64,000 nucleotides of DNA from the NCBI GenBank assembly GCA_026419785.1, contig JAODTK010004398.1, positions 186,001 through 250,000 on the forward strand, given 5' to 3'. The notes below the pieces were generated by a model. The model was not told the DNA's origin. It did not search any database and saw only the letters and a program-made list of their open reading frames with translations. Shown here piece after piece: positions 7,975-61,452 of this stretch; within the stretch, counting starts at the first letter, position 1, and every line of letters begins with the position of its first letter. A program made the position numbers and the translations under genes. The stretch comes from Sclerodactyla briareus. Lineage: Eukaryota > Echinodermata > Holothuroidea > Dendrochirotida > Sclerodactylidae.

Positions 7975-8560
7975 GAAATTTAGCCAAAAATATTTAAATG
8001 TATATGATTGTGCATAAACATCATGCCAATTCAAACGTTGTTTCATGTATAGCATGTTCGTTATAAAGTTATGGGGATTTTCAAAAATTACAAATTTTAC
8101 GATTAAGTGGCAATTTTGCAAATTGGCACACAATGATGACGTCATATCTACAATTTGACGAGAAAATTCTGTAAGAAAATATGTCGCTTCCTTAAAAATC
8201 ATGCCAATCAACGTTGTTCATGTTCATAGCATGTTCGGTTATAAAGTTATGGATTTCCAAAAAATTACAAATATTTACTGCTAATTTGGCAATTTTGCAA
8301 AATGGCAACATTTGATGACGTCATATTACCAATTTGAGAGAGAAAAATGTAGTAGAAAATGTCGCTTCCCTTATGATGGTAGATATGAGTCACAAAAAGT
8401 TTGCCCAGTTTGCCGAAATCGCAACTTTATGAAAATTGAGGAAGCATATCTTCAACCGAAAATTGCTATGAAACCTGGAACAAAAGTGATATTTAAATGA
8501 TTTTTTATTCCTTTAACAATAACACAGGAAGAATACTAATTCGGCTGGAATTCACTTTAA
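7975..8560. repeat. Dispersed repeat with internal duplication (TGATGACGTCATAT)
   Basis: A ~190-bp block (CATGCCAATTCAAACGTTGT, AGCATGTTCG, TTATAAAGTTATGG, GATGACGTCATAT, GTCGCTTCC) occurs twice in a row (about 8015-8195 and 8199-8375), followed by a unique 3' part that recurs at 14240-14430. The TGACGTCA palindrome appears in both blocks. Confidence 0.85.
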
Positions 8561-14940: not shown

Positions 14941-17900
14941 CTACGGAATGAATTTGACGGAGGGGCAGGTTAGTGGTATGACACAGAATTTCCGATAGCT
15001 ACAAAGCTCTCTGTGTACTGCGTTGTTTTGTCCTCCATACTGGCCAGTGTGATAAATTCCATACTGCAATGTTCCACAGAGACGGTGACCCGAACATGTT
15101 TTATATCAGTTTGCTGTATAGAGTAATACGCTGCAAATGCAATTCCAAAGAGGAACATGAAAGAAATTTTGAAGAATGCCACTTATATTTATTCTGCGAT
15201 TCTTTCAAACAGGATATGGAAACCAGGAAAACTACTTGTTATTTTGGGCATGACGAGAAGCTCACCAATCTGGTGGCAGCGGGCATACAACACAGTCCCC
15301 TTCCCATGTGTCCCCGAGGTGTGTGTTTGAGTGCTTTTATAATTATTAAATGCGCGCATTTTATAATTGCTCGTTTTAGTATTGACCGTAAAATTCCTGA
15401 ACTCTATTGTTCAGCCTATTAAATGATTGATGTCACGGGCTGGGTCCAAGTTCATGTCGTATGGACAATGTGAAAAGTGGGTGACTCCGTCGCAGATCGA
15501 TGTAGTATGGCAGTTAGTGAGGTTGTCGCATGCGCAGTAGGTTTACCATTACGTCATAGTCCGCGTCCCCATCATGATATCTGAAGCTCCCTAATCACAG
15601 GTCTGTGACTACTTGCCTATAGGTCTGATGACCCTGACCAGCGTCTGGGTCACACACAGGGCCTCGGACGTGGTCTTGTAGAAGGAGTCCCCGACTGCTG
15701 AAGTGACGGGCTGTCGACAGAAGAGAAGGCCAACTTGAAGAAATGTAGGCATCAAAAGTAATAACGAGCACTGATACAGCCCGTGCCTACATGATCGTGA
15801 GGCCAGATATGGGCACTCTTTCAGTCCACGCAAAATGCACACTCCACTTTCATGTGGCCTAGAAGAAATAGGCAGCTAATAATTACAAGCTCACTTGCAG
15901 GGCACAGGTTTCATAGTGTAACTCATTGCAAGGTCTATCCTAGATATACTGTCAAAGGTGCAACCACTTGAGTAAGGAGGAGGGGGGGGGGTTCCCCAAC
16001 TTTCATGAGAACCTCCATCCACAGATCTTTACCCCCAAACCCTTCGGCATATTCCCCAAATCGGGTATTCTCAATATAATTCATGTGGTCATAGCTGTCA
16101 TTCTCTGACAGCCCATGAGCACTGAGATTGGACGATAACCAAATTTTTGTCAGGTTGCCAACCTAATACTACTACTGCGGTCATTGTAACTCGAGGTTCC
16201 ACCCTCGAGCTCTCCCTTCCCCATTGTACTTTGAATATTCAGGTCAGGCATTTGTTTTGGCAAATTCCCAATTTTGCTTCAGTCAGGCAAAAACATTGAA
16301 TGAACTGTTTCAAAGGGGTGGGTTAGTGTTTACCTTTCTCCAACTATGAGATTCCTCTCTGAAACTCCCTGACTAGGTCTCTCTCCCAACTCAATGTACC
16401 AGTACTAAATCAACAGATTATGTTATATCTAGAGACTGTCTCTCTTTTGCATCCAAAACTATCTAGATATTATTGTTAATTTATGGCTGAAGAGACATTC
16501 ATTTTATTTAGGCCAAACTTTCTTCTCTAAGTTTGGAGGTGCGACTTTCCTCCCAGTACTTTCTCGACCAACTGATTGGCCCCTGGAAAGAATCATCACT
16601 TACGGTACGAGGATTTTTTAAAATGCGGGGTCAGGGTTGTTGGTTCAGAAGTAGCCAGTTCAGAATACCATCACTTAACAGTACAAAAGGCATGGTGAGT
16701 ACGGGTGAATGGTTGTGGTGGTCGAGACAGTTCAGAGGCAATACTTACCTTTAAAAGGACAGTGAGGTGCTTGTGGAAAGGTTTTGGTTTGGGAGAATAC
16801 AGTTCAAGAATGCCATCACTCTTACGGGTACAAGGACAGTGTGAGGTGCTGGTTGAAGACCTATCGTTGTGGTTTAGTCGTAACAAGTTCAAGAATGTAT
16901 CACGTACCGGTACAAAGATGAGAGGTGGTGGGTTGAATGGTTGTGTTCGGGAGAGAATTGATAATTGCATCACTTAACCGGCACCGGGATGGTGAGGTGC
17001 AGGTGGGTAGGGTATGGTTGAGGAGTAGCCAGTTTTAGAATTGCATCAACTTACGCGGTACAAAGAAGTGGTGAAGTGCAGTGGGGAGAGTTTGGTTTTG
17101 AGGAGTAAGCCAGTCAGATGCATCCTTACCGTTACAAGGATGGTGAGTGCGGGTGGGAGGGTTTAATGGTTTAAGGAGTAGCCAGTTTCAAGAATGCATC
17201 ACTTCCCGGTACAAGTATGGTGAGGGCTGGGTGGGAGGGTTATGGATGGGAGGAGTAGCCAGTCAAGAACCCATCATGACCGGTACAAGGATGGTGAGGT
17301 GCAGGTGGGAGAGGGTTATGGTTGAGATGTAGCCCAGTTCAAGAGGCATCACTTACCGGTACAAGAGGTGAAGTGAAGGTGGAAGAGTTATGGTTGAGGA
17401 GTAGCGAGTTCAAGAATGCATCAAATACCGGTACAAGAATGGTGAAGTGAAGGTGGAAGAGTATGGTTGAGGAGTAGCCAGTTCAAGAATACATCACTTA
17501 CCTGTTACAAGGATGGTGAAGTGCGGGGGGGGGAGGGTTATGGTTGAGGAGTAGCGAGTTCAAGAATGAAGCATTACCGGTAAAGTATGGTGAGGGCGGG
17601 TGGGAGGGTTATGGTGAGGAGTAGCCAGTTCAAGAATGCATAACTTACCGGTACAAGGATGGTGAGGTGCGGGTGGGAGGGTTATGGTTGAGGAGTTAGC
17701 CAGTTTTTCAGGGGGTTTTGTTGGGGAAGGGGGGGGGAATGCAATCACTTACCGCGTACCAGGATGGTGAAGTGCGGGTGGGAGTGTTAGGGTTGAGGAG
17801 TAACAGTTCAAGAATGCCATCCCTTACCGGTACAAGGACTGTGAAGTGCAGGTTGGGAGGGTTATGGTTGAGGAGTAGCCAGTTTCAAGAAATCATCACT

Positions 17901-20900
17901 TCCCGTACACTAATGGTGAGGTGCGGGTGGAAGACCTGTGGGTTGTGGTTCAGGAGGAGACAGTTCAAGAACGCCGGGGGTCAATCTTCATGTTCAACTT
18001 CCGTTCTTATCACTGTGAAGAGAAAGAATGGACATGTTAACATATTTCCAGCACCTTCTGACCAATTGTATCTAGGACGAATTTTGGTGAAATTCACCCC
18101 TGAATCTTTCAGTATTTTTTTTTTCCCCATCTCTGTCAAAAGTGTCAATTCTGTGTTTGCTAGTGATATTGCTCTCAACGGATCCTTATTGAAGAGCAGA
18201 GTAATGATCAATGTTTTAACCATCATACGAACATTCCATAACTAACTTCATATGTCAATTCATTTGAATTGATAACTATAATCAATTAATTGTGGGCAGA
18301 TTGTCCTATCAGACATCAACTCTGCAATAGTGTAATTTTATACCTAACCTTTCAACTGTTCATCTCACATTCTCATCATTTCCTGTTCCATTTTGCTAAT
18401 GTGTCAATTGTTCATTTTTATCCTCAAATCCCTCCTTTTTTTTTCATGAAGTATCTTGAAATACATCTACTCCTTATTAGTAACACGACCTAGAAAGGTT
18501 CAGTGGATGTGGTGGCAGCAAGGCAGGGATTTGGTTACCTCGCCCCTGCGAAACATGAATGAGCTCTGAGAGTTGGCCCTGCACCTCCCAGGGTTTAGCC
18601 TATATTCATAAATACCACGTGACCTATTTATGTAGAATTGGTGTGTAAAAGTGAATTATAACCAGTTACGATTTTGCTGACCAACACCGGCTGACCAAAT
18701 AAGGATGAGCGCCGCGAACGCATGCCTTGCGTTCGATGTAAGCGCGCAAGCATTTGATGAGGTTAGCTGTGAAAACACGAAAGCAATGTACACGGGGTTG
18801 CACGCGTGAATGTAGCTTGCACGGGTATCAAACACTCTTGGAACGTTTTGATGCGAAATAATAGTAGGCATTACTATCACACTTTTTGTATGACAACAAA
18901 ACTAGAAGTGATTAGTGGACTTATCATGAATGGGAATAATAAACAGGAAAATCGGGACCTTTGTTTAAAATTCAAAGCCCTCGACTGCGCATCAGCTTTC
19001 TAAACCTCTATTATTACTGCATCGGTTTAATTTGTTTATGATTCCCTAACGAACAATCAACTAGGTATATTTTACCACCGCGCCACCCCACTCCCCCTAG
19101 AAAGGGTGGGGTATTGTACAATATTGACGAGTGGGATAAAGGCCAGGGGATTTTTTTCTCTCTCAGGACAAGAGACAACACTGTTTGTCAGTTCTCCCAA
19201 AAGGAACGGAATAGCCTGTAAATTACTGAGCCAGAATTTAAAGACTTCATTACAATCATACAGATAATAATAATAATATCTTGTCTTATAGTAGCGCTTC
19301 CCAGGTCGAAGACTTGCCTCAAAGTGCTTTACAAATATTACCCCTGATCATGGTGACTTTCAAACCACATACCATACAGCACCGCATGCTCGCTTGTTCT
19401 TCCCGATGCACCATTTTCAGTACAGAGTGGGGATGAGCTCTGCGAGTGGTGGTCTGACACATCTCAGTGACCACCCTACTCGATAAGACCAACACACCGA
19501 GACTCACTGTGGAAAGGGGGGGTCGGGGGGGAATGTTGTATATTTCTTACTTGGAGGAACGGGTGTTAACCAGATCGTTACCCCAGGGAATACTGGATGC
19601 CCGGCACCAGGCTGGGGAGTGGTTTGCCAGGGCCGACGGGGTGAGCATGGATGAGCTCCGATCAGCAGGGTGAGACACCCATGCCGGGTTTTGATGCTCT
19701 TCTCCTTCATCTGACGATGGACCGACTTCACGACTTTGTCCGGGGTCTGCTGCCGAAGGAGTGCCACAGGAGTGAGAGACAGGGAAAAAAAAAGTTGATA
19801 GGGGTGCGTTTTTGTCGACTGTTGTGATAGATAATTTGTTTATAAAAATCACCATTCACAGAAAGAAAGACAAGGCGATCGCCCCCAGTTGTCTCTCGCA
19901 TGGTGAGCGATCAGTGTTTACTTCTATAAGTAACCATGCAAACATTTACAAGGAATTCAATGTGTGCTTAAAAGATTTGGGTATTCGCCATTAAACGAAA
20001 CAGCCTATAATCAGGGATCCAATTTTCAACATTTGTGAAGGGATGATTATGACACATGTGTCTACTAACGGAGTAAAAGTTTTGTGGAAAAGGTGGGACT
20101 CAAATGAACTACAAGTATGCAATTTCAGGCAATTTACCAAGGTTTCACGAAAAATCCGGGCAAAACTTTAAAATTAAGCAAAAATTATGCAAAAATTTAG
20201 AATTGTGAATGGCCGCCAGGACCCTGAATCATGATCATTTTTTTTGGAACTCTTGAAAAGTAACCATACCCACCAAGGTCATGAAAATCCAAGCATCTTG
20301 AAGATTTTGCATAAATTATGCAAATTGGGTACTTTGAATGACCTCATGGACCCCAAATATTTGTTAAAAAGTTTTGGGACTGAAAGTTTCGACTATATTC
20401 ACCAATTTTCGGGAAAATCACAAACTTTTGAGTTTTGCATAAATTATGCAAATTAGATGACTTATACCATATTTTATGCTGAAACCTAATCAGTTCATCT
20501 ACCGTATATATCGCCTCTATGAGACAATCCAAGTCACCATAGCACTAACTTCATCGCAACCTGTTAACGAGCCTAACCATACTTCATAAAGATGGCCTAA
20601 GTACCTTACTTAATTAGTGACTTTTGTGCCCAAACAAATCTAATCAGATCGGGTTTCACCCAACCGAAGCTACCCTGAATATTTTGTCGCATGCACTTCC
20701 CTCAAAGATATCTGCTACGAGAAAGTGTGACCACACACACATACACACACACACAACGCCATAGTTATGACGCGTCTCCTCCCAGGTCCCCCTCCCACAA
20801 ACCCCTAAGACACAAACCAAGTCCAAAGAAGGCCCTAACGAAGAATTTTGCACAGCGACTATGACTCGAACGCAAAAGAAGTCACGTTATCAGTATCACT

Positions 20901-23900
20901 GTGTTGTCAAGGAGGACGTAATTTTGTATACAACTCCGTGTAGCATTGGCCGTGGCCTGACTATCATTCTCTTGGGACTGTTTGCTCTGTAGATGAGTAA
21001 ATGGTGTAACATGACTGTCAGACCCAATCACGTCACTAATTGAGGAATGAAGTTGACTAAAACGCAAGCCTAAGGTCTAGTAGCATTTTCGCAAATAGCA
21101 AGTTGCGGTGCACTGTGGATAGATTTGATGATGCTGGGATTACTCCAGGGGGAATTTTGTGTTAGCCATGTATTGGAAAAACTTGTAAATTTCAATTACT
21201 TCTATCTCTGTGCATCTTCGCCTGCAAAAGTTAGTACATTGTCATGTATATTTTTTTATATCTTTATTGTGACAAATCGATGGAATGCGATAATGACTAG
21301 ACTGAAAAAGCGATTTTATCGTTGTTTTTACGCTGAAATTCCTATTGGCCTTCCATAGATTGCCTACTTTGCCCCCTGAGCTAGACGACAATGCATTGCG
21401 AGATGCTATTTGCGAAAAGGTCTATTTGGGTACACTGGTAAGCTGACCTCGCACAATCAGTGTGCAGAGTGATCTTTCAATAATCTCTGATGAAAATACA
21501 CAGATCCTAAGACAAACACAAGACTCCACAAATATTTCCGGTCAGGGTATGCGCTAACTCACTAATTTTGGGGTCCGTCAGCACCTAAACCGACAAAAAA
21601 AAAAATGTTCTTCTTTGTCCATGAACGCTTGACGCCTACGCTAGCGCTATGTGTGATCTCCACACTCATCAATATTAAAATATATAACTGCGATAAATGT
21701 CTCAATTCAAAAGACAATGTGATGGTTCGGACATAGGCGAAATGAAAGAGCTCCACGGCGACAAATGTGTCTATACCCCTGGCCCGCCCGATGGGGAGCA
21801 TGCATACTTGAATTGAAGGTATTGTAAAACATATTGTTCTGACTTTCGAACACTACATCGGAAGTTATAAGTATTGAATTATTGTTATACCTATATGCAC
21901 AGTCTTCTATTGTGAAGGTAAATTGATGATTGGATGATGATTCTACCTACTACACGCATATATATAAAGATATACATAGTGTACTATCCAGCTGACAGGC
22001 ATCGTTCATTTACGCCCGCTATACAGATTGGTCAATATTGGACTCAAAACTCCTCCACAAATTGTACAACGGTTTGCTGAGAGAACATATTTACAAGAAG
22101 TGTTCCAGTTCCGACTCTGACCGGATTCAAAAAAAATTGAGTAGTGAACAATTTTTTTAAAGTGTTAATGGTCATACAACAAGTCTTTCACAGGCACAGG
22201 TGATGAATGAGAGTAAATTAGACCCCACAAACATTAAATGAAAATCTAGATTGTGTTGTCCTCTTCAATCTTTTTTTTCATTCCTCAATCAAATTCATTA
22301 TTGATAATAGAGCTTCAGATTTCACAGACGGGGCGTCTAACAACTGGATTTCTCCACAATGTCTGACCATGCACTTAAAACGATTTCTATGATGCCTCGA
22401 ATACAAGTTGCGTGTTAGATGTGTGTGTTTCATGACTGCGCTTACAGGATGAGTGTTGAATGTGGAATTTATTGTTAGCTCTCTAGCAACAATACCAAAT
22501 TATGTCACGCGCTGTGCCCAAGTTCACGTGGTAGAGACATGCAAGTGGTGGTAGAATCCTGTCGTAGATCGGTGAAGTAGGACATGGTGTGAGGTGCGCG
22601 GGAAGGTGTGCGAGGGACGGTGTGCGAGGGAAGGTGTGCCGAGGGAAGGGAAGGTGTGCGCAGGGAAGGGTGTGACGAGGAAGGTGTAAGGTGTGAGAGG
22701 GGGAAGGGTGCGAGGGAAGGTGTGCGAGGAAGGAGTGCGAGGGAAGCGTGTGCCAGGGAAGTGTGCGAGGGAGGTGTGTGCCGACGGAAGGTGTTGCCGA
22801 GGAAGGAAGGGGTGCGAAGGAGGTGTGCGAGAAGGTTTTGCGAGGGAAGGTGTGCGAGAGAAGGGCTGCGAGGGAAGTCGTGCGAGGGAAGGTGTTGCGA
22901 GGGAAGGTGTGCGAGGAAGGTGTGCGAGGAGGAAGGTGTAGGAGGAGTAGTGATGCAAGAGGTGGGAGGGGAGTTGCCAGGAGGGAGGTGTGCCGAGGGA
23001 AGGTGTTCGAGGGAAGGTGTGCGAGGAAGGTATGCCGAGGGAGGTGCTAGGAGGAGAGTGTGCAAGAGTGTGGGAGGGAAGGGTGCGGAAGAAGGTGTTT
23101 TCCAGGGAGGTGTGGGAGCGGAAGGTGTGGGACGAAGCTGTGGGCGGAGAGGGGGGGGGGGGGTGAGATGTGGGGGTGAGAAGGGGAAGGAACGGAGGGG
23201 ATGACAATGGGAAGTAAACTGACCCTTCTTCCTGCTCCATAGCATCAGGTCTAGGCCACTGTGATATTCACTGGCCTGGTCGTGTCGTAGGGAGAGCGAT
23301 GTAGGCCTGGATATGTTCCGCCTTCACATCTCTTCTCTCTTGCAGATTGAAGAATAGATTCAACAGAAACACTCACTATTTTGCTCATCAGTGGAATTCA
23401 CACCAGTCCCAAATGTAGCATTCAAACCAGTGTCTCAAAGTAGCATTCAAACCGTGTCGCAACATGCATTTAACCAGTGGCATCAATGTTAGCATTCAAA
23501 CCAGTGCCTCAACATAGCATTCAAACCAGGTTCTGAACATAGAATTAAACCAGTGTCTCAATGTAGCATTCAAACCAGTGCCTCAATGTAGCATTCAAAC
23601 CAGTGTCTCAAAGTAGCATTTAAACCAGTGTCTCAACGGCATTCAAACCCGTGTCTCATGAAAGCATTAAACAAGTGTTTTAACATAACACTAAAACCAG
23701 TGTCTCAAAGTAGCATTTAAAGTGGTGTTTCAACGTAGCACTCAAACCAATGTATTAAGGATCATTGAATCAGTGTCTCAACTTAGCATTCCAACCAGTG
23801 ATCAAAGTAGCATTAAAACCAGTGTCTTAAAGTAGCATTCAAACCGGTCTCAATGTCGCATTTCAACAGTGCCTCAACATAGCATTCAAACCAGTGTCTC

Positions 23901-26900
23901 AACATAGAATTTTAAACCAGTGTCTTAACGTGCATTAAACCAGGGTCTCAGACATTTAAACCAAATGTCTAAAGTAGCATTTACACCGATGTCTTCAAAT
24001 AGCATTACACCAGTGTATTCAACGCAGATTTAAAACAGTGGTTAACAAACACTGAAACCAGTGTGCAACGTAGCTTCTAAAGCGGTGTCTAATGCAGCAC
24101 TCAAACCAGTGTATAATGTATCATTTGACGCAGTGGTCTCAATGTAGCATTCAAACCAGTGATTCAAAGTGATTGAACCCCCCAGTGTCTTCAAGTAGCA
24201 TTCAAACCAGTTCCTCATTGTAGCATTCAAACCAGTTGTCTCAACATAGAATTTGAAATAGTGTCTCAACTTGGAATTCAAACCAGTGTCTTGAAGTAGC
24301 ATTCAAAACAGTGTGAATGTCTTAATGTAGCATTTAACATGTGTCTAACGTCGTAGCATTCAAATCAGTGTCCTAAAGTAGCATTTCGACTTTAAACAGG
24401 TGACATCTGGCACATGGCATAGGCACTCTGCGTTCTGACCATCTGCAAATGTGCAAGATTGTGTAGCAGCGATTGACATAGCGGCTTCGGCAAGGCCCTG
24501 CATCCAAATGGAAGGGATAGTCATTTCTGCCCATATACATTACTTATATCACGTAAAAAAAGAAAAATTGCCCCGATTGACAATGACTTGCACAACATTC
24601 TTTAATGGCATAGAAAAATCCTGGTATGGGTTCGAAAGTGAGTAGTAATTTCAAGGGTTTTTCCAGTTGTAGGGGCTCGCTAATCATCCTGTTCCAAGGC
24701 TCTCAGTCTGTGACTTTGGTCTCTTGGTGTATCCTCATCCGGTGAGTATAATCTCTGTTTTGTTCCAAGTGGACATCATAAGGGATAGATGGATGGACAA
24801 GAGCCCTGGTATGGCTAAATCTGTAAAGATGATCTAAACCTACCTGATGCACGTACGGTGAGCTTCGTTGGGACAGCGTCTAACAAAAGACTCAAAACCT
24901 GTTGGGGGTAAAAGGTTTTAAAGGAGATATATTGAAAAGGATTCAGTGTTTATAGGTTACAGTCAGTGTTAATGATCCCACCACAAGGCTGGAAGCTGGG
25001 GGTTGATTTCAGCAATATGTATTATTTCAACAGCATACAATTTTCTCCTCCAATATCTGGGGGTCAGACCACCATAAAAGTGGGGGGACAATCACAAAAT
25101 TATCCAGTTTATGGAAGCAAATACAAAAGTACGGACATATATATCGTAGTTGGGGGGCTACTGTACGGAGAGATTATAGTTTCAGCCACCCGGCAGTCAG
25201 TTGGTCACCCACCTGAAGACAGTACTCTTGTTTAATTCGTGTCACCTTCCACCTGGGCAGTATGAAAAATCAACGGTATTGATCTGTCCATGTGTTCGCC
25301 GACTCGATGACCAGCTTGGCGACCGGAAGAAGAGAAAGACCAATGCATTACTATCTCTAACAAATAACTTGAATATGGATGCTTAAAAGTGTATATAGTT
25401 TGAAAGAATACCTGAAAGACGATGCAGTTCAACCAACTCAAGAGGTGGGAGCAAACGTTAGGTTCCACTGAGCTGAAGTTACGGGTTGTGTGTCATTTCA
25501 TAAGATGGGCCATAGGGTCCAAGTGGAATTTTGGATCAGAAATTCCTGGAAAGCCTGTAGGTACAATCTATTACACCATCACTATGATAACATCAGCACT
25601 GTGCCACCCAAATTTGTAGGGAGACACATTGCATTTGACACATGATGAGCCGTCAAGCCAACACTGGGCCTCAAGTCAATTCCTGAGAACCCTAAAGGTC
25701 GGATATCAAACATGATTATGACCGAACATCAACGATGTGCAACAAAATTTGAAAAATTGAATTTGTGGGAGAGCAATTTGCATGTGATTCTACATGATGG
25801 GCACTACGGGACATAGGGGGCCTTGGACCAGGAGTTTGCAACACCCCTGGTGGACCACTACCCAAGGAGCAATCACATGTTCAATTCCTACAGAAATTAA
25901 TTGAAACTTGTGTGAGGAGATGGCAGTTCAAGTACATTGTGTGAAAAATTTCATAAAAGGGGAGTTTTTTTGTTTCCCAAGGGGTTGTAAAACAGTTAAT
26001 TTTGAGCTGAAATCAATAAACTCTGTTAAGATCAATATTCTCTCTGACCGCACGGTTCACTGGAGTTCATAAGGCCTATCTACAGAAGTATACTGGAGAA
26101 TTTCAGATCGCCCCTTAAGTGAATGTTCCGGCAAGTCCAAAAAAGGAATTCATCGGATGTGTTTGCGATGCCGTCCCAGGTCCAGCTGAGTCTCAATGGA
26201 AAGGGGACAAAATTTGTCAGGTAGAATAAATAATGTAACCACGAAACATCCATGAAAAGCGCTTGAAGCAATGACGACTATAAGCAAAATTTGTGTTCAG
26301 TTTGTCTGGAATACCGTCCAGGCACCAACCTCAAAAGAGGAGTAAACGGATGCTTCACCACAAGTACAATAAAGCCCAAAATTAAGACCATGGTCATGGT
26401 ATCAGGAGTTTCTTTGACCAAGAACAGGTGGAAAAGAATATATCAAAACCCCCACACCCTAAACTTGGAGGTTCCAGGATGTTGCTATGTTGGGGATATT
26501 TAAAGATGACTTTTGGGAAATTTAAGGAATTCATGGAAGACTGCCCACAGACTTAACACAGTTAAATGTCACATTTTTGTGCCATGCTAACAGAAGTACA
26601 AAAAAAAGGAGAGTGAATGAGATTATTCTTTAATGCTTTGTGAAAGATTTTATTCGCTCCAATCTATAGTTTGTTTTGCAACAAACAACGGTTGTTTATA
26701 GGGGATTCTGCGGTTCCCCCATGATGTCACAAGGCCAAATTTGCCAATAGCGACTGTTGTGCCTATCTGTTCCATCTAATCGGCTGCTGAAATTCAGTCT
26801 GGGGTATTCTCGGCTGTCATAATGCAATACCATGAGAGTACAAAAAGTCCAACATATTTATGTGGACATTGCCTTAATTATATTGCATAATCATATAGGA

Positions 26901-35900: not shown

Positions 35901-38900
35901 TAAACATGTGAGTAAAGCAAACACTAGGAAAAAATGTACTACCAATGTGGAGATGCCCTCAGTGTTCCGTGTCAGAAAGATGTTGTTACAAAGCGTCCGA
36001 CGATGGTTCCCACCCTGCATAGTCACTTGACTTTTGACACCAGGAGGACCAAAGACTGGAGGAAGGAAAGATAGATATAACATAAAAAAGGGCGAGGCAA
36101 GATTAGAACGTGAATTGGAAAGATTATCACGTTAATTATAAGATAAATGCCTTTCTGCCGTACTCGAATGGGATACTCCCCAATATCTATCCGAGTTGGT
36201 GATCCTAAATCCTGCAGTAGGTATACATGGATCCAACAGCACGAGACAAAAGAAGAAAAAATGAATCCTTGTTGGTATTTTTATTCTACCCTGGACTCTG
36301 CATGGAGGCCGGGGAATGTCACACAGTCAATTGACTTTCATAAAACCTTTAATTGGCCCTCCCCCAAGCATGCATTGTAGTGCTTATGGATCCAAGGTCC
36401 AAGAGGAAATTGCCTTTGCAGGTCCCATACCTGGAAAGGACATAGGCCCAACCTACGGCCCATGGACCGAATCCAGCCTGCAATAGGTACTTCTTTTCCT
36501 GCCTCCGAATGCTCATGAGATCCAAAAACTTGTATTACTTGTTTATTCAAAATTCAGTTATCATCATTATAATAAACTACTTTTGGCCCATTAGAAAGTT
36601 GTGAATTTTGAATCTGGACCCAGGGGCCAAATGCAAATCAGGACAAATGGAATTTTGTTACATCTCCTCAGTACCGGCACATATGACATTTTTCACAAAT
36701 ATCCCTTGTTTGTTACAAATAAGTTGAAAAAAACCCAACCAACCACACAAGTAAATTCTACTCGAATTAGGACCAGCATCTGGGAATTTATCGAATTCAC
36801 AAATTGTCCAATCTAGAACCCTTGGGACCTCTGTCCTGATCCACAAAAGAAAAGAGATAATGTATAACCATGGGAAACCACACATTAACTGGTATGAGCT
36901 TCATTAATTCAGGTGGGGTCGGTCGGGGTATATCATGTTCACAAGTTGGAAATGGTCAAAATATTGATTTACACCAAAATTTCAAGTTTTCACAGAAAAC
37001 TATCCTCATTCTTCCCCAAAACAGAAAGTCTTTCTCCCCCCCCCGGTAGAAAGTTAAACACCTAAATTCAGATCACAACAATTTAGAACTTGGAACTCTG
37101 ACTGACCCCCAAAACAATAAGGACAAACAATTCATCATGAGGACACACACAACCAAGTATGGGGTTTATGACTCGGACTTATTCAAGTTGTCATCTTTAC
37201 GAACTGGGCGGCCACAGAGACACACACACAAAATGACATGACTGCAAGATCCATGCACTACCAAGAAAATAAAAAAGACAGAATTTGGAGTTGAAAATAC
37301 ACCTGGTGAAATAAACAGGTATTAACGAAGTATTTCCCTAAAAATTCAGACAGACGAAAATGGTAGCAGTCAATGGCATCCAGACCATCCCCACCAACCC
37401 CTTACCGCAGGAACAGTTATTACTACCCAATGAGAGTATGCCAGCAAATCATATTACAGAAAGATAGAGACTCGCACTGGGTCATAGATGGGATAATTGT
37501 AACTTCAAACAACGCACCAAAGGAAGAATGGAGCAAATCTTAAATTTACCATTCCACAGCTGATTTTGGACTTCCCCATTCTTATCCTCCAAGGCTTGAG
37601 TAACACCTCACTACCTGAGAGAAAAATGTTGAGAGATGAACATACGCCAGTGGGTTCTGTAAAATACTGTAGCAAATGAGTGGTGAAGTTGAAAATGAGG
37701 GCACCTCCATGATTCAGGTAGATGGGTAATGTTTTAAAACACCTCATAGTGTACCTCGGGTTCTGAGACAGTACAAGTTATCCCATTCAGTTGCCTCTTA
37801 TGAGCGGCAGGAATACCATGGGGATATTCTATGGGGAATACAATTAGTTAGTTTTTTGGTTAGCTTAGTGAAAAAGAAATCCTCATGGGAGACCGTTGAG
37901 CCACAACATCCAAAAGAGAAGAACAACCCAGATGCTCAAAGAATTCGCCTACACGGTTCCTGAAAAATAAACCGGACTGTTGAATGCATCACCACTCTTA
38001 GACAGAACAACATATTCAGGAAGGATATTCCTCATTAATAACTCTCTGGAGAAGAAATGGTCCGCGTGTCCAAATTACAGCGTTTACCACGAAAACTTGA
38101 GGGCAATGACCCCTTTGGTGGTAACTTTGGAAAACGCAAGAAATAGTGGAAGGAAAGGCAATGAATCCAGAACAATGACACATGGCACATGATCTCATAG
38201 GACTAGTGATATGTTGTGGGACAGAGTGAATGGGAACCCACTGCCGATTTCAGCAGTCACATTCTACAAAAAAACTCTAGAATCAATTGTTTTTTTTTTC
38301 TTTTTTTATGTCAAGTCAATCTACCACCACAACAGGCACACGGAGGTGGACGTTTGAAGGGGGGGGGGGGGGGGTGGGCAGCAGGCCAGAGGAGTCGTCG
38401 AATTTCATTACGGGAATTATACAGCATATATACAGCATATACAACACTGACGGATGCACTGCCAACATGTACTATTGTCATGAGTGGAACGCAGACGCAT
38501 TCCATCGGAACGGTATAAATTTACGAGTGGTGTGCTTGAGCTTCACGGTGGGTTGGAAGGCAAGAGTAGGCCAAAAGTTGAAACTGCTAGTATTCTTTTC
38601 CCATAACAAGAATTGCTGAGACAAAAAGCACATGTTTTATTGCCATTTCTCTAGTATCTCAAGTATTGAATCCTGGTGGGACTTAAAATGACTCAAAGAT
38701 AATTTGAAACCTACGTGATTAACATTCAACAAGTGCATTGAAATCCAATTGAGCCTGGAAAATTGCAAAATTTCATATGACTAAGATGACTTTCCATTCA
38801 TTGCCTTGTTTTCCACGGATCAGTAAAAGGCCAACAAATTGCACAAATTTGACTCCGTGACCAAAATCCACACCATGTATTCAAGACCAAGTAAATTCCA

Positions 38901-40705
38901 CAACCAACAAGTGTGGTAAAGCCAACAAAGTAAGAAGAAGCATATATGTGTCGCAAATTGGACATCCCGGTGGCTTTGACATCATTATTAGAAAGTTCAT
39001 GAAGATAGATCCTCACCACTTTGGTTGGTTTGACAGTTTAGTCATCCACTCGGACACTTTATGAAAATTAAAATTGAGGAAGAAAGCTCTCTCCCCGTTG
39101 ACATTTGACAGGATGCCAGGTTTTTTCTGGACCAACTGAATCCACCCCACAAGTTTTGGTGACAACTTCATACTTTCACATAAAACCGCAAAATAGAGGA
39201 CAGCAGTCAGTAACACTGCTCACTTTAGAACCCACCAAGATTCTCTAGAGGAAAACATGTGTGCAAAGTTCAAATCAATCGGATAAAGCATTAGAAGGAG
39301 TTATTACGCTAATGCGAAAGTCATCCAGCAGCTGCGGCCAACTGGAGACAGCGAACCCAACCCCATAATATCTCGGAAGTGATATGAATGAGGGATACAA
39401 TGAGTACAATCTCTATTAATACCTCAATCTTTCACTTGTTTTAACTAGCAGTGAACGTACAGAGAACCATGCTCAAAAGGACTTAGTTCCATTCCATGTT
39501 TTTAGTTGTGGGAGACAGCAGCTCTACAAGTCTCAATGTCTATCTGTAGTCGTTCGTCGTTCCTTAGTTCGTCCCGTGTTCATCAGTACATTCATAAATT
39601 CTAAACCGTACATGCGATAAGGATGAAACTTGGTAGTGGATGAAGCTCGGATACTGGCTAGGACTGAGTACATTAATGTTGCATTGGTGTGATTAGATTT
39701 AATTAAATCCAATTAATTACCCCAGTTTCCAAAACTTCCATTGAGCTTCTCTAACTGTGAGAGAGGTGTTTTACAGTACTCCCCCTCTGCAGAGCAGTGT
39801 TTACTTATCTGTCAGGCGGGTCCAGGTCTGCAAGCCTGAGCTCTCTGACTGAAGAGAGGTTTGTTGCATTACTCAATCCCTCTGCAGAGCAGTGTTTACC
39901 TATCTGTCAGAAGGCAGGTCTGAGCCTAGTTGAAAATAAAACCTATGTCCAGGGGAAGAGGATTCGTCTGTCATCACATCCGCCCTAGATGTTGGGTGAG
40001 CCAGAAAGAGTTGTTACACATGTTGGGTTTGTTGCCATACATATAAGCAATATACATGACTAGGAAATAGGAATTATTCAGTTGCACAACTTTGTGCTGG
40101 GCACGGATATAAAACATTAGGCCAATGTGGTAGGAATGTTCCAAGCCATTCCATGGTTATGACATATGTCAGTAATGGTCAATTAAATGTGGACAAACAA
40201 TAAATGTGGATTGGGGAGGAACATGCAGTGTATTCGCCCGACTTGCGCTTGTTAGTCTCTGACCCAAACCAGGGATTTAACTCCAGCCTGCAAAGCTGCT
40301 ACAACCAACACAGCACTGGGAAAGGAATTTGAGCAACGTTGAAAAATTATATATACGATATTAGTATTAAAGACTCACTCACTCACTTTCTCTTCCCACT
40401 CTCAATACCCAGACAGCGGGAATTGCAACGCACTCCGACAATATCCAGAGGATGAATATGGCGCTCAGTCCCTCAATTAGCCCCCAAGGTGTTTCAACTG
40501 GTCAGCAATGTTGTTGCCTTAATAACAGTTTTTCCAAATGCACGACTCCAAACTGCAACACTAACACATAATTTGCTGGCTCCACAAATGGGGAAACATA
40601 CCGTCCGTTCACTGTCGTAATCCAGTTGATCGGAAAGTCCTTCTGCGTTCGCTATGAGGTGTTAGTGGCCATGACCGGGAAAATCCTTGTCGCTCTTGAG
40701 GTCAT
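14821..40705 (-). CDS. CAND1: CAND1 gene, partial (14 exons recognised), introns included
   Basis: CAND1 is a nuclear and cytoplasmic HEAT-repeat protein that wraps around unneddylated cullin-RBX1 and exchanges substrate receptors on SCF-type ubiquitin ligases. Fourteen minus-strand exons translate, in the right order, to conserved CAND1 stretches, including SSDKDF, LLEDKNGEVQN, LVSKVK, VRKRAII, RQAGHRVGEHM, FESFVRRCP, PDAMEQEE, QMKEKSIKTR, NHNPQVFHPHL, VGDSFYKTTSEAL and KERAISCM. Most are bounded by AG acceptors and GT donors. They cover roughly residues 15-500 of about 1230. Exon 1, the acidic-loop exon(s) and everything after KERAISCM were not found. Nearly every exon contains single-base frame shifts, mostly apparent deletions, while splice sites are preserved; this suggests assembly error, though a pseudogene is not excluded. 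Introns hold LINEs, a SINE relic and three minisatellites. The naming is secure from the ordered matches; completeness and functionality are not. Confidence 0.93.
15432..15530. repeat. ~95-bp segment duplicated at 22503
   Basis: GTCACGGGCTGGGTCCAAGT, TCATGTCGTATGGACA, AAGTGGGTGA, GTCGCAGATCGATG and TAGTATGGCAGTTAGTGAGG align with 22503-22598. Both copies are in CAND1 introns. Confidence 0.7.
15617..15710 (-). CDS. CAND1: CAND1 exon, VGDSFYKTTSEAL motif
   Basis: A 94-bp exon with no internal frame slip. It reads PVTSAVGDSFYKTTSEAL followed by CVTQTLVRVIRPI; the family has VGDPFYKITSEALLVTQQLVKVIRPL. The acceptor is CTTCTGTCGACAG. The 3' end reads TATAG then GCAAGT, so the donor is either a GC-AG type site or a GT site with a base error. 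Confidence 0.95.
16570..17901 (-). repeat. About 18-copy, ~75-bp minisatellite made of a CAND1 exon end plus its splice donor
   Basis: On the minus strand the unit is about 65 bp copied from the 3' end of the CAND1 exon (from TTCTTGAAC through CTTGTACCG) followed by GTAAGTGAT, after which the next exon copy starts. Donor-like sites occur near 17898, 17822, 17747, 17645, 17573, 17501, 17424, 17352, 17277, 17203, 17126, 17048, 16972, 16900, 16822, 16746, 16673 and 16599. Inner units share a 7-bp deletion (loss within CACAGGTCT), whereas the parent exon and a unit at about 16840-16890 keep GGTCTTC. One unit near 17701-17740 carries a G-rich insertion. Confidence 0.93.
17902..18012 (-). CDS. CAND1: CAND1 exon, NHNPQVFHPHL (parent of the 75-bp array)
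   Basis: The acceptor is TTCTTTCTCTTCACAG. The exon begins GDKN with the preceding GG, then NMKID, FLNCLLLNHNPQVFHPHL and TI, matching family LNDKSSSSNLKIDALSCLYVILCNHSPQVFHPHV. The donor is printed as CGGGAAGTGATG; neighbouring repeat copies show CCG/GTAAGTGATG, so two bases appear lost. Joined to the next exon it gives LVP-PVTSAVGD, matching the family's LVPPVVACVGD. Its 3' 72 bp plus donor are the template of the array that follows. Confidence 0.93.
19264..19500 (-). mobile_element. 3' end of an L2/CR1-like LINE
   Basis: Starts with (AAT)n on the plus strand, followed by TAGCGCTTCCCAGG and CAAAGTGCTTTACAA, the same layout as the 3' end of the LINE at 54318. The orientation is therefore minus and only the terminal ~230 bp is present. 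It lies in the intron between the CAND1 exons at 19582 and 18012. Confidence 0.6.
19582..19773 (-). CDS. CAND1: CAND1 exon, HRQMKEKSIKTR motif
   Basis: Reads TPVALLRQQTPDKVVKSV, then HRQMKEKSIKTRHGCLTLL, matching family TPLTMLQSQVPNIVKALHKQMKEKSVKTRQCC. The rest (ELI, LANH, SLVPGIQYSL) appears after several one-base slips and matches LTELVNVLPGALTQHIPVLVPGIIFSL. The donor is GG/GTAACG. The 5' edge is inferred from homology; a CAG at 19750-19752 is an alternative acceptor that would drop TPVALLRQ. Confidence 0.92.
20130..20470. repeat. Dispersed TTATGCAAATTAGA repeat, copies 2-3
   Basis: The phrase GCATAAATTATGCAAATT appears at about 20308 and 20435 with GAATGACCTCATGGACCCCA between, the same text as 4215-4280. 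It lies in a CAND1 intron. Confidence 0.7.
20720..20757. repeat. CA microsatellite
   Basis: CACACACACATACACACACA run of about 35 bp in a CAND1 intron. Confidence 0.95.
22503..22598. repeat. Second copy of the 15432 segment, abutting the 14-bp array
   Basis: GTCACGCGCTGTGCCCAAGT, TCACGTGGTAGAGACA, GTCGTAGATCGGTGAAGTAG and GGTGTGAGG match 15432-15530 and run straight into the G-rich minisatellite. Confidence 0.7.
22588..23160. repeat. G-rich 14-bp minisatellite in a CAND1 intron
   Basis: Imperfect tandem copies of GAAGGTGTGCGAGG (plus strand), about 38-40 units with many one-base variants, ending in a run of about 14 G. It lies just downstream of the CAND1 exon at 23224-23338 in the direction of transcription. 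Long open frames on both strands here are products of the repeat and not proteins. Confidence 0.95.
23224..23338 (-). CDS. CAND1: CAND1 exon, REENVKAD...PDAMEQEE
   Basis: Contains VKAD, QAYIAL, RPV and PDAMEQEEG; the family has [37 protein letters not shown]. The likely donor is GTCAGTTT. The 5' boundary, near CTGCAAG, is uncertain by a few bases. The exon is sandwiched between a 14-bp G-rich minisatellite starting about 65 bp downstream and a 25-bp minisatellite starting about 50 bp upstream. At least four single-base slips are needed. Confidence 0.9.
23385..24395. repeat. 25-bp minisatellite in a CAND1 intron
   Basis: About 40 imperfect tandem copies of a unit close to GTGTCTCAACATAGCATTCA plus AACCA. 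The copies are contiguous with no unique spacers, so it is not CRISPR-like. It occupies most of the interval in which the missing acidic-loop exon(s) of CAND1 should lie. Confidence 0.95.
24844..24898 (-). CDS. CAND1: CAND1 exon, FESFVRRCP motif
   Basis: A 55-bp exon with acceptor TTTTACCCCCAACAG and donor GTAGGTTT. It reads FESFVRRCPNEAH with no frame slip up to that point; the family has AFESFVRRCPKEVYPHV. The expected continuation (CLKYL, YDPNYNYDD and the acidic loop, then WKVRRAAAKCL) is not visible between here and 23338. Confidence 0.87.
25213..25322 (-). CDS. CAND1: CAND1 exon, RQAGHRVGEH motif
   Basis: Reads RQAGHRVGEHMDRSIPLI, a clear match to family RQAGHRIGEYLEKIIPLV. After slips it ends DDELREYCLQ before donor GTGGGTG. 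The acceptor position shows TTCCGG instead of CAG, either a base error or a lost splice site; exon phase (S-R-Q across the junction) fixes the boundary. Confidence 0.92.
25440..25990 (+). repeat. Repeat family A, internal fragment
   Basis: Contains the ATTCCTGGAAAGCC, ATTATGACCGAACATCA, TTTGTAGGGAG and CATGATGGGC modules of family A without the terminal hairpins. It lies within the CAND1 intron between the exons at 28920 and 25322. Confidence 0.75.
26440..26820. repeat. Dispersed repeat family E, copy 2
   Basis: The counterpart of 2930-3345: CCTAAACTTGGAGGTTCCAG, GGGGATATTTAAAG, TTTAAGGAATTCATGG, GATTCTGCGGTTCCCCC and ATGATGTCACAAGGCCAAAT in the same order. It lies in a CAND1 intron. Confidence 0.6.
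27840..28060 (+). repeat. Dispersed repeat family D (direct copy)
   Basis: ACAAGCGCAAGTTGAAAACG, GGCGAATACACTGCCTGTTC, CCAATCCACATTTATTGTTG, AATTGACC and GTCATAACCTTGGAATGGC appear in reverse complement at 40128-40330. The stretch begins with a truncated family A start (CTAGAGAACCAATAGTGGTG). Confidence 0.75.
28920..29054 (-). CDS. CAND1: CAND1 exon, HLV...LFNDLID...TPPLTRT
   Basis: A 135-bp exon with acceptor TTTTCCTGTTCTTTAG and donor GTATGT. It begins VHHLVLKLPQ, continues in a second frame as NLFNDLIDF, then reads KELGANTTPPLTRT and IASIS. The family has VFVDLIEHLLSEL, then TTRTYIQCIAAISRQAGHR. The end joins directly to the RQAGHR exon at 25322. Confidence 0.86.
30078..30142 (-). CDS. 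CAND1: CAND1 exon, AVRKRAII motif
   Basis: A 65-bp exon from acceptor CCATCCTACCTACAG to donor GTAAGT. One frame gives AALLHS, ASP and RKRAII; the family has TCLLPQLTSPRLAVRKRTIIALGHLV. Its last bases CTC join the next exon's GTCCACCACCTG to give LVHHLV, matching LGHLV in frame. Confidence 0.77.
30591..30664 (-). CDS. CAND1: Probable CAND1 exon, LEFADLL
   Basis: A 74-bp segment with a pyrimidine-rich acceptor (TTCCGCTTCTCCAG) and donor AG/GTTGGG. It reads SEKIS, then after one slip LEFADLLIGHINGSLGSR. This is placed on the family's EDVSVQLEALDIMADMLSRQGGLL by its LEx-ADLL pattern and by lying between two secure CAND1 exons. Similarity is weaker than for the other exons. A small exon for the NFHPSIL stretch that should follow was not found. 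Confidence 0.5.
31830..31910 (-). repeat. tRNA-derived SINE head or tRNA relic
   Basis: The minus strand shows TAGCCAACTGG, a full match to an RNA polymerase III A box, and about 30 bp further GGTCCGTATCCC, close to the B box GGTTCGANTCC. The whole resembles a tRNA 5' region through T loop, but no clean cloverleaf is evident. It continues into AT-poor sequence on the lower-coordinate side, as in a SINE body. It is inside a CAND1 intron. Confidence 0.6.
31940..32100 (+). mobile_element. Possible LINE C-terminal fragment
   Basis: Split plus-strand frames give LLWNALPSPV and then TFTLPTFTRAF. A RLWNSLP-type phrase is common at the end of LINE reverse transcriptase proteins. It is short, frameshifted and weakly supported. 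It follows the SINE-like segment directly. Confidence 0.35.
33157..33252 (-). CDS. CAND1: CAND1 exon, GLKTV...LTGRLTNAIYQ
   Basis: A 96-bp exon with acceptor CTTCCAACAG and donor GTACGT. It begins LKTVL and ends, after one slip, with LTGRLTNAIYQ. The family reads GLKTVIGELP, then KKITGRLTSAIAKQ. The middle (ATTSCKG) corresponds to the variable AANVCKK region. Confidence 0.8.
34290..35200 (+). repeat. Repeat family B, tandem run of about three units
   Basis: About 300-bp units made of two half-units: AATAGGGTTCATG...GGGGAACACACA, then AATAGGGGTTCCTGTACTCC...AACCATTCTGGA...TTTGACCTCTGG. Unit starts are seen near 34519, 34690, 34835 and 35002. It lies in the CAND1 intron between 35943 and 33252. 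Confidence 0.8.
35943..36055 (-). CDS. CAND1: CAND1 exon, LGPLVSKVK motif
   Basis: The acceptor is TTCCTTCCTCCAG and the donor GTAGTAC. The exon carries LGPLVSKVK, then a stretch matching the family's ETIVDTLCTNM, then ISTL, corresponding to family RDISSIGLKTV. Several single-base slips split it across frames. It abuts the LKTV exon at 33252 after a 2.7 kb intron. Confidence 0.85.
36560..37260 (+). repeat. Repeat family B, diverged copy
   Basis: Contains ACTTTTGGCCCATTAGAAAG, GGGACCTCTGTCCTGA, GGGAAACCACACATTAAC, CATTAATTCAGGTGGGGTCG and CCCCCAAAACAATAAGGAC. It ends in CACACACACAAAATGACATG, like the copies at 1422 and 12220. Confidence 0.65.
37550..37614 (-). CDS. CAND1: CAND1 exon, LLEDKNGEVQN motif
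   Basis: A 65-bp exon between acceptor TTTTCTCTCAG and donor GTAAAT. With one-base slips it reads VVRVLLKLLEDKNGEVQNQAVEC, one of the best conserved N-terminal stretches of CAND1. As printed, the frame is broken (a TAA falls in LEDKN). The upstream join to SERT and the downstream join to LGPLVSKVK are both in phase. Confidence 0.87.
39782..39925. repeat. 105-bp tandem duplication
   Basis: CCCTCTGCAGAGCAGTGTTT followed by ACTTATCTGTCAG occurs at 39782 and again at 39887 (ACCTATCTGTCAG), with CAGGTCTG and GCCTGAG in both. Confidence 0.8.
40128..40330 (-). repeat. Dispersed repeat family D (inverted copy)
   Basis: The reverse complement matches 27876-28050: CTAACAAGCGCAAGTCGGGC, GAATACACTGCATGTTCC, CCCAATCCACATTTATTG, CATAACCATGGAATGGC. 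It lies in the first CAND1 intron visible in the window. Confidence 0.75.
40602..40705 (-). CDS. CAND1: CAND1 exon 2 (N-terminal HEAT repeat)
   Basis: Acceptor AATAATTCCAG precedes ATGACCTCAAGAGCGAC, read as MTSSDKDF once one base is allowed to slip. MATN follows, and the exon ends DYDSERT before the donor GTATGT. The family N-terminus reads LLEKMTSSDKDFRFMATNDL, so this is the second coding exon and exon 1 should lie at higher coordinates. The last codon joins in phase to the next exon (SERT then VVR). At least two frame slips are needed across the 104 bases. Confidence 0.9.
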
Positions 40706-41372
40706 CTGGAATTATTTTTAACGCATGGGAAGAAAAGAAAAGGAAATGAGCAGGATATCTAGAGTCTTATAGGGCCTACAGTGCAGAATGCAAACTGAGA
40801 ACGCGGTAGTGTGCTTGGAGAAACCAAATTTGAGATGCGATGCCAACATGGACTGTCCTATTGCCTTTGTCCAGGGTTGGCTTTTGGTTTCACCCTACAT
40901 GTAGTGACAGCAAGTAAGTGATACTTTGTTCAAATATTGTGAGTGTGGCGTAAGCGTTTTTCTTCTTGAATGTATATCGGATTTGTAAATAGGAGCCTTG
41001 GGATCAAGGAGAACCTATCAAGGTATCAATTGGCAACGTGTGAACACTCATTTATAGGGCGCTTTGTGTTGGTAGTCCATGAAGGCAAGCCAGAAATATA
41101 ACAATATTTTACTCATTTGATGGTGTATCACCACCAAAAATTTTTCTATGTCATCAATAGGTTGGTTCGGGGTTAGTGTCTATCCCATATGGTCGATGTA
41201 GTTGGAAAGTGGTCTTCTTCCGTCTGGTTGGAAATGGAATGGATAGCCTTATCAGATTAAAAACAGAGATATCTGACCTTTCGATCAGTGAATCAGTGGC
41301 CAACAATCTGTCTCTATGGGTCCTGGCTCCTATCCTAGATTTCAACCTCGGTCCTGTGATCGCACCATAATT

Positions 41373-41675: not shown

Positions 41676-44600
41676 AAAGTCTATTCATTACTCAAATACT
41701 CCATATTGAACTTTGCACCAGACTAGCACACGGGGCACTGGAGGCGGGTTCCGTGCCGTCACTAACAGGGTTGTTGTAGGTTGTAGATGCAGAGCAGGCC
41801 TCGTGCGGCTAGGCCGAGACTGTGTTGGAGACAGAGATTGAAAACGAACGTCGTGTGGTAAACCACACACGGACGCTCGCATACCGTCTCGCGAAGAAGC
41901 GTAGGTCGGGAGAAGGAGGGGCCGGACATCTCCAGGCTCGCGGGGCAACGGGGTTGTTGCACATTAGTGGAACCCGAGCGAACCCTGCTCAGAGATATGC
42001 GGCCTTGAGAGGCTCTCTATCCCACGGAATATGAGAAAGCCTTCAATGCCGGAGGAGAAAATGACTACATAGGAAGAAGAGGTGAGTGCCGTTGACGAAA
42101 GAACTCTTTCACCAGTACCAGTGCCTCGTGTCCGCACCGGGACACCCCACATCCATGAAGCCTCTCAACCGGTGGCTAGAATTCCGACGGTGTGCAGATG
42201 TAAGTTCTCTCGAGGTGTCGAACCCGGACCCACGGGACCGCTCGGGGGGTCGACCCACCGCTCGAAGAGCTGACCTGGTTTGGATGTCGAAAGAGTAGGT
42301 GCGCGGCTGCGACCGCAGGCGTGGGAGTACCAATTTGGCCTGGGAGGGCCTAAAGAGTTGGATCAGGGGGGGGAGGCCACCCACGGCTCGGGGAGTCGAC
42401 CTGGCTCAGGAGGGCCCAGAAAGATTCGCAGGCCCGATCTTGCTCGGTAGGGCCGACCTCACACAGGAGGGCCAGGGAGAGTCGGATTACGGCTATGGAA
42501 GCTCGTGATGAACCAATCCCAGGGGATCGAGGCCGAAGGGAGCGGCAGAAAGAGTGGGACCAACTCTCTGGAGAGTCGGCAAGGCTCGATCCTCGGTCGG
42601 TTTAGAGCTGATCTCACCCAGGAGGCAGGAAGCGTCTGACCACTGCGCTGGTGAGTCGGCGGTATCCGATCCTAGGCTCGGTAGGGCCGATCTCACACAG
42701 GGAGGGCAGGAAGGGGCGGGCTCCGGCTATGCAAACCCGGGATGAGCGAACCACTGCACAGGGGAGCGGGCTTCGGAGGGCGTTGTGAAGAGTCGTCCGC
42801 GGCTCCAGAAGAGACGGGAGAGGGGAAAGTCGAACCGTGGCGCGGGAGGTCGATCGGGTCAGGAGAGTCGGAGAAAGTGAAGGCTCCAGAGGGGTCGTAG
42901 AGGGCTAACCCTCGGCCCTGGAGAGCCAGTCTGGCCCAGGACGGCTGATAGAGAGTCAGACCACGGAACTGGGGAAAACCGGGAAGGACGACCCTCGGCT
43001 CGGGAGAGCCCATCTTAATCAGGAGGCCGAAAGAAGTCCGACCACAGCCCCGGAGGGTGGGAGAAGAGGTCGATGGGTCGACACACGGCTCGAGAGGGCC
43101 GACAGAGACGGTTCACGGGTCTGGAGAGCCTTACCACGGCTCCGGAGGGCGACCCGGTTCGGGAAGGGCCGGAAGAGACGGTTCACGGCTATGGGGGCAG
43201 ACCTGCTCTGGGTCTCTAGTGATGGCAGTCCCGATGGGAACACGGAACGCCCCACCACCATGGCACTCCGCGGTCAGCGGGGTCCGGCCTAGCCGGTCTG
43301 TAACAGGGCTGGATTGTAGACGGGACAGAGACGGCTTGCAAGAGAGTACGGATACCTCGGGGGCTGGCCGGTGGTGCTCCGTAAACGGGCCGTAGGGTTC
43401 TGTCTCTCAGCGGAAGGTCGGGTCGATCGAGCGAACGTGCCGGCCTCGGGGAAAGCGCGTGCCACGTGAAGGTGCAACTGCGCAAAAGAAGTAATAGGGT
43501 CCACGGAGAAGAGCGGACGAGATCTACTAGCAGAGAACGGGACTCGGCGAGACTGGCTACTAGGTCAAGTAGGCATACAAGGCGAGACGTAGTCCGCCAG
43601 CATTAATTCCGGCACGTCTATGACGGCAGTTCCCTGTCGTTGAGCCCCCGCTATCTGCAGTAAGCTGTCTATGTAGGCGAGCCCTCTAGAGTCGCGGCTA
43701 CGGATGGAGGTGAGCGGAGAGTGGGCCTGGTAAGAACCCGAGGGAAGGTAGCGAACTGCTAGTCTCTCCCCGGAAAGCAGGTACGCTTGGAAGCCCGACC
43801 CTGACCGACAATTAACGGACCCTGGTCCTCGACTGGCAACGGCTGTACTGTTCGATAGATAGTGGAGCCATGCAACTCCGCCCCGGTGGCCCTCCGGCCG
43901 GGGGGGGGGGGGGGGGGATGGCTAGATAGGAGCTCCATTCGGCCTGCGAACACTAGAGTCTTCCAGCATCAGTGGCATCCGCGAGCCCGCTGGTCTCTCT
44001 TTGAAGAGAGATCCGACTCTGGAAGGGGTGGCGCTCCTGGGCGGCCGCAGCAGAAAACCCCGCCGCTGACCCGAGCGGCTCCCCTGTCTGGATGAGGAGG
44101 ATTTAGACGGTGCTGACGTAGACCTGTGGTGAAAGACTCCTTCCAAGTTCGGCTCCTCCAGGGACTTAACATTTTTTCCGTCCCGCTAGCCGCACTCTTG
44201 ACTGAATATATTACGTGTTGCGTGGGTTTTGTTTGTAGGCCCCGGCCCACGATGGTGGTGACTGAAGGGCAACTCCACGAACGGGATGGTCACCAGGGCC
44301 TGTGCGATGTCCGTGCAGCCTTATGTCACCCGCGATACAAGTCTGACAGGACCTGGCCATGGAAGGAGGGCCCACGGGACCAAGGAACGCGATAGAGTCA
44401 CTTGTACAGCGACGCGTAGCGAAGTCGTCTGTCCCGAATTCGTAGTAACTAGATCGGAGAGGACGAGAACAGTTCTGGCGATGAGGGACCTTAACAACGT
44501 CCCTCGCCGAAAAAAACAAGACAGCCAGCCTGAGTCTCGCCCTAGGTTGATCTGGGATCAACGGCACACTAACAAGGATGCTGTCCATCCGACCCCCGAG

Positions 44601-45200
44601 GACTACCGGCGGGTAATTACCTCGCCGGCTTCCTGGGGTGTAGAACACACTGATCCACTTGAGTCGCAATGCCTGACAAGAGAGACTCCCGCCGCTACGG
44701 CTGTTCGGACGGACTGCCTCGTACCCCCGGGACCTCCCGAGAGATCTCGTATCGGGGAGTGTCTTGTCGTGATTCCTCCCCCTCTGCCGGGACAGAAGGA
44801 CAGCTGAAGATTCTGAGGGGCCGCCCCGCGGCCTAACCTCCCCTACGCGGAGGCCGGGAGGGTCCAAGAGCGTCAAGCCGTACGGGCCCGGAACGTCGGC
44901 CGCCTAAACTGTCTGAAAAACCGGCGAAACTGGCGGTAACATCACCCCGCAGGGCTCGCGGCTTGGCTATCCAATGTAAACTTCTTTGAACTAGCCGCTA
45001 TCCGCATCCGAGCAGAGACCTTCCTAGGAAGATGTTGATGATGTTGGGCTCTGCCGTGTAGGGCTTGGATCGATGCCTGTCCCCTGGATCCCTGGTCCCT
45101 GGCGCTGGTTGATGCCTGAGCCGTCCCGGCCCGCCAGGATACGCGGCCGCAGAGGGACCGGTCCGACCGCTATCGTCGGGACCTGGGCAGTTTAGAGGTG
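41440..45200. other. GC- and CpG-rich block with gene-like open frames
   Basis: Base composition jumps sharply from the AT-rich surroundings and CpG is plentiful. Open frames of up to 221 codons exist on both strands (for example the minus-strand one at 44211-44876 and the plus-strand one at 44286-44807), as expected when stops are rare in GC-rich DNA. A Ser/Arg-rich minus-strand stretch at 43922-44146 looks the most protein-like, but I do not recognise it. The block lies 5' of the first CAND1 exon found, so a promoter CpG island or a GC-rich mobile element are both possible. Confidence 0.5.
42190..43260. repeat. Degenerate ~40-bp GC-rich tandem repeat
   Basis: A unit near CCACGGCTCGGGAGGGCCGA followed by CCTGGCTCAGGAGGGCC and GGAAAGAGTC recurs at least 20 times with heavy divergence, clearly at 42395, 42440, 42655, 42880, 42990, 43085, 43135 and 43165. 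Confidence 0.8.
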
Positions 45201-45204
45201 TAAC

Positions 45205-61416: not shown

Positions 61417-61452
<36 letters not shown>

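Follow-up and report, generated by a model that had tools for sequence, protein, structure and literature searches.

The stretch of Sclerodactyla briareus DNA analysed here (64,000 nucleotides; the window) carries a gene for CAND1 (cullin-associated NEDD8-dissociated protein 1) on its minus strand, running through the window and past its left end. The recognisable pieces of the gene are collinear on this one strand, from residue 5 (at 40733) to residue 1193 (beyond the window but still on this contig), and among at least six matches in the assembly CAND1 pieces lie on one contig only, with no second copy detected. The exon that concerns us, encoding about residues 486–520 in human numbering, spans 17904–18012; its 3′ splice site is the AG at 18013–18014, and the exon starts at 18012. 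It was located by tblastn and by frameshift-tolerant alignment, and contains two frameshifts. Alone and taken literally it gives a tblastn E value of 0.008, and in the frameshift-tolerant alignment it scores 98, compared with 106 (51 frameshifts) and 90 (5 frameshifts) for reversed-sequence controls; its literal translation reads LTISVREV, not LTILVP. A 56-residue peptide in which the proposed end of this exon is joined to the next exon matches solved CAND1 with an E value of 2e-18, its first part being idealised. The next exon (residues 523–553, 15617–15710, minus strand) is free of frameshifts, starts with CCC GTC ACT and matches the Pfam family TPR_CAND1 by itself. The intron that ends at 15710 has an acceptor of its own, GACAG, before CCCGTCACT (PVT). 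The GCAAGT that follows this exon, at 15611–15616, is either a GC donor or a base error.

The exon that precedes the one of interest (residues 423–484, 19584–19773, minus strand) has three frameshifts. Nearer the start of the gene, and also on the minus strand, the exons for residues 73–108 (35943–36050) and 5–49 (40599–40733) have seven and six, respectively; their scores of 62 and 65 fall below the best control score of 74, and both were accepted on gene order. In the first frameshift-tolerant alignment, controls reached 106 on reversed sequence, as above, and 72 on the plus strand, and with controls so high only the matches that follow gene order were taken from it. A harsher alignment, for which 74 is the best control, supplied nine of its 14 rows, the five that were dropped scoring 41–46, outside gene order and within the control range. 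Its list is incomplete: the exon at 17904–18012 and the matches at 25321 and 14995 are absent from it, though present in the first alignment, probably owing to the way in which matches are masked. Three of these nine alignments, holding 16 of their 24 frameshifts, fall below the best control and were accepted on gene order, while the other six contain 8 frameshifts in 903 nt.

From the end of this exon into the intron that follows extends a tandem array. Wrap-around alignment resolves 18 head-to-tail units on the minus strand, at 16593–17971, with a consensus of 74 nt. Each unit consists of the final 62–69 nt of the CAND1 exon together with that exon's 5′ splice donor, the consensus comprising 62 nt derived from the exon and 12 nt of intron that start with GTAAGTGAT; the parental unit has 7 nt more. 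Unit 1 (17892–17971), with literal donor GGAAGTGAT, carries the exon end plus donor and retains the 7 nt, as does unit 15 (16811–16895), and the deletion is present in the other 16 units. Units 2–13 (16966–17891) form a more homogeneous core that bears this deletion, with a mean pairwise identity of 81% (over ungapped columns and with the insert of unit 4 removed). Units 14–18 (16593–16965) are more diverged, at 58% identity to one another, although units 14 and 17 are visibly badly aligned. A C-rich stretch at 17713–17739, found in unit 4 alone, is a real insertion or a base error. Past the last unit the intron flank (16570–16592) starts with TTCTTTCCAG.

These results bear out much of what a preliminary description had proposed. 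The period of about 75 bp and the copy number of about 18 are upheld, since Tandem Repeats Finder reports two blocks, at 16966–17705 (period 74, 9.9 copies) and 17737–17930 (period 75, 2.6 copies), and the alignment gives 18 units; with such a period and a tandem arrangement the array is a minisatellite in the usual sense (units of about 15–100 bp). The derivation of the unit from the CAND1 exon end, fused to its donor, is upheld by 15 of the 17 other units, each of which outscores all 200 dinucleotide shuffles when aligned to the literal exon end; the two exceptions are units 12 and 14. The proposed 7-bp deletion, common to the inner units and absent from the parent and one distal unit, was found as described. 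Matches to the array above shuffles were absent both from the upstream half of the parent exon and from the intron flank past 16593. In the assembly (319 Mb, 3171 contigs) the array was detected at one locus, which is not proof of rarity, and a second allele was not found; a 32-base pattern, allowed up to three mismatches, occurs at three places, all inside the array.

How might such an array have arisen? The breakpoint in the exon, GGCG-TTCTT-GAACTG (TTCTT at 17967–17971), and the intron after the last unit, GATGA-TTCTT-TCCAG, have the pentamer TTCTT in common. A tandem duplication seeded by microhomology could have taken place between two such TTCTT sites, copying some 80 nt that start midway through the CAND1 exon and extend about 11 nt into the next intron. 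It would predict what is seen, namely a first unit joined to the exon, a last unit joined to unrepeated intron, and TTCTT at both breakpoints, although a match of only 5 nt could be due to chance. The original unit would have been 80 nt long, or 81 nt if the C found at many inner junctions (GATGCATTCTT) was original. The last unit has GATGATTCTT where many inner junctions have GATGCATTCTT, a mismatch that leaves one base of the duplication model unsettled; reading codons, an 81-nt unit would give 27 open codons and an 80-nt unit would soon reach TGA. A 7-nt deletion may then have produced the 74-nt form, which would have filled the core as the array expanded to about 18 copies. Expansion from inside predicts the greater likeness among units 2–13 than among units 14–18.

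The consensus also suggests how the gene would be spliced. Its exon end has CCG before GTAAGT, in phase with the CCC GTC ACT at 15710, and use of the first donor would remove everything as far as 15710 and join LVP to PVT; human CAND1 has LVPPVV at this junction. The first unit would remain the true exon end, and its donor would splice away all other copies with the intron, leaving the protein unchanged. Use of a later donor would add one or more 74-nt units and then, on the consensus, a stop. The preliminary description had stated that read-through of one unit meets TAA in the next donor, which is right for the 74-nt consensus. Its further statement that the first donor restores the LVP–PVT frame is likewise true of the consensus, but not of the literal exon, which is twice frameshifted. 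That the donors are near-identical was an overstatement: exact GTAAGT is present in seven of the 18 units, and GT is missing at the expected position in units 1, 10 and 17, unit 17 having a GT one base earlier. Unit 1, the expected bearer of the working donor, has GGAAGT in place of GTAAGT, literally CGGGAAGTGAT. With this donor and an exon twice out of frame the first donor could not work as printed, and we assume a base error behind both the altered donor and the altered frame.

We conclude that the locus probably represents an exon-boundary duplication that expanded within the intron. Splicing from the first donor would normally remove it, and any leak would be minor. On the sequence evidence, a real duplication turned intronic minisatellite, passive in splicing, is the most likely account. 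Later donors would probably see low-level use at most, with early-stop transcripts that are likely to be decayed, and the effect on the gene would be near neutral. This expectation may be too lenient. SRSF1 is reported to shift choice towards the intron-proximal of two competing donors and hnRNP A1 towards the intron-distal one (PMC5585400), and with two such opposed factors the outcome of donor choice depends on context; a preference of SRSF1 for the intron-proximal donor would make the later donors more harmful than we have assumed.

It is quite possible, if somewhat short of probable, that assembly noise accounts for much of the difference between units, and perhaps for the exact copy number, with a true array that is more uniform and possibly longer or shorter; this would be compatible with the exon-boundary duplication just described. 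The 24 frameshifts noted above fall within 1273 nt over the nine CAND1 alignments. Actin pieces are split into adjoining frames (C1260:170309-170820, where one piece has a TGA, and C2792:267460-267940), stops occur in six of 14 HSP70 matches, and in the array itself 60 of 88 substitution alleles are confined to one unit. With frameshifts in CAND1 and breaks in actin and HSP70, base-level claims about single donors are unreliable. Exon-level error alone is nevertheless insufficient, since the 1332 cells of the array contain 84 indels, 48 of them insertion events and 36 deleted bases. This rate is higher than that of the exons at either estimate, so either the repeat was less well assembled or the copies in the intron have truly decayed. 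The remaining 28 substitution alleles, like the 7-nt deletion, are common to two or more units, and some of the variation is therefore probably real. Homopolymers show no excess of deletions (18 of 36, compared with 53% expected), one actin match stays open over 402 nt, and a pair of the nine CAND1 alignments are free of frameshifts. For the assembly as a whole, the actin and HSP70 pieces on contigs C1260, C2792 and C2424 signal an uneven base quality.

Could the repeated donors themselves be functional? The copies might bind U1 in competition with the first donor, such that the length of the array would set the productive share of CAND1 transcripts through unproductive splicing and decay; we consider this unlikely. 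Donor strength was scored between 18013 and 15711 with a simple matrix and a cut-off of at least 4, the donor score of the exon for residues 560–593 being left out. By this measure 17 GT sites reach the cut-off, and 13 of them are inside the array, 12 at the donor position of the unit; these sites, and the TAA met on reading through a 74-nt unit, speak in favour of such competition. The donor hexamer, however, is without clear extra conservation. It is changed in 10.2% of cells, compared with 13.0% in the other columns, and seven of the 74 cyclic six-base stretches are better conserved; being hardly better kept than the rest of the unit, it gives little sign of selection on the donors.

The closest known parallel also speaks both ways. 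The human ABCA7 intron-18 VNTR, as described in PMC5954066, begins with the exon-18 donor and repeats a 25-bp unit that opens with the two bases of the donor. Its copy number is highly variable and is linked to disease, and a donor one unit on retains one 25-bp unit, out of frame. There exon-19 skipping and lower expression both correlate with the length of the VNTR, as a functional array would lead one to expect, but retention of one unit is unchanged with VNTR length (PMC5954066). A ladder of about 18 donors acting as a length-dependent brake on CAND1, a cullin regulator found once in the assembly, with each extra unit a decoy donor that soon ends translation, is in our judgement quite improbable. 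If true, the level of CAND1 would track a fast-changing minisatellite.

Very unlikely, in our view, is that CAND1 here is a decayed pseudogene and the array a product of decay in a dead gene. The parent exon and seven of the nine CAND1 alignments have frameshifts, the first donor is altered, and among at least six CAND1 exon matches one has an in-frame TGA and another a TAG, the latter past the exon end. The same kind of damage is seen in other genes, actin and HSP70, which are broken as well, and the residues between the CAND1 frameshifts are well kept, with 40 of 60 identical to human over residues 1133–1192. In-frame stops are absent from the nine alignments, albeit under a scoring that penalises them, and the search for a second copy, of limited reach with at least six matches, detected none. 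A dispersed repeat was rejected on the match of the array at one place only, itself no proof of rarity, and chance similarity of the units to the exon on the shuffle comparison, in which 15 of 17 units lie above all 200.

The exon-boundary duplication favoured here can be set beside known systems. Like the ABCA7 VNTR, it is an intronic tandem array that begins at an exon's donor and repeats it, in which the next donor would keep one unit out of frame, and the units vary slightly. It differs in that the CAND1 unit is 74 nt long, not 25 bp, and is mostly coding-exon sequence, and in that the array is known from the sequence of one assembly. The structural resemblance, an array that starts at the exon end and whose units repeat the donor, is to be read with the exact hexamer in 7 of 18 units and the literal first donor altered. 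A minisatellite with multiple splice donors described in 1995, likened here by its title alone, would similarly provide several donors from one repeat. Donor-bearing repeats are thus already known as a kind, and the present case stands apart in the gene involved and in the length and mostly coding nature of its unit. Within the literature covered on donor-bearing and exon-derived repeats and on CAND1 intron repeats, which leaves out most subscription journals, we found no report of this array; the accessible portions of PMC12783039, PMC2883569 and PMC4233971 have no bearing on it.

A further comparison is with intron gain by tandem duplication, in which the copied piece must bring an acceptor as well as a donor, and a new intron results. 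The CAND1 array resembles this model in being a tandem duplication across a splice-signal sequence. In contrast, the piece copied here has a donor only and lengthens an existing intron; the acceptor half of the exon is absent from the array, and the origin of a new intron was rejected on that ground.

At present the finding is a structural one, made in an assembly that is noisy. It offers a natural case in which a splice donor has been multiplied along with its own exonic context, and which would allow one to study how the spliceosome chooses among many similar donors and how far exon definition reaches. Should length prove to matter, it would be another donor-bearing repeat that sets gene output.

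Two further minisatellites lie within CAND1, at 22594–23046 (14-bp unit, 32 copies) and 23396–24314 (25-bp unit, 37 copies), flanking the exon with residues of about 384–418; both have about 70% matches and many indels. An exon origin for these two was rejected by eye, their units being unlike the neighbouring exon or donor. Elsewhere in the 64 kb, a block at 42001–48000 is rich in G+C (0.62 in 42001–44000 and 0.51–0.52 to 48000, the other 2-kb intervals having 0.40–0.47) and has long open frames on both strands. No tRNAs and no Rfam families at gathering score were found within the window. A 178-bp unit is present in two tandem copies at 8015–8369 (83% matches, 10% indels), and a TAGA microsatellite at 61260–61474 (54 copies, 92% matches, 4% indels) is cleaner than the minisatellites of the window.
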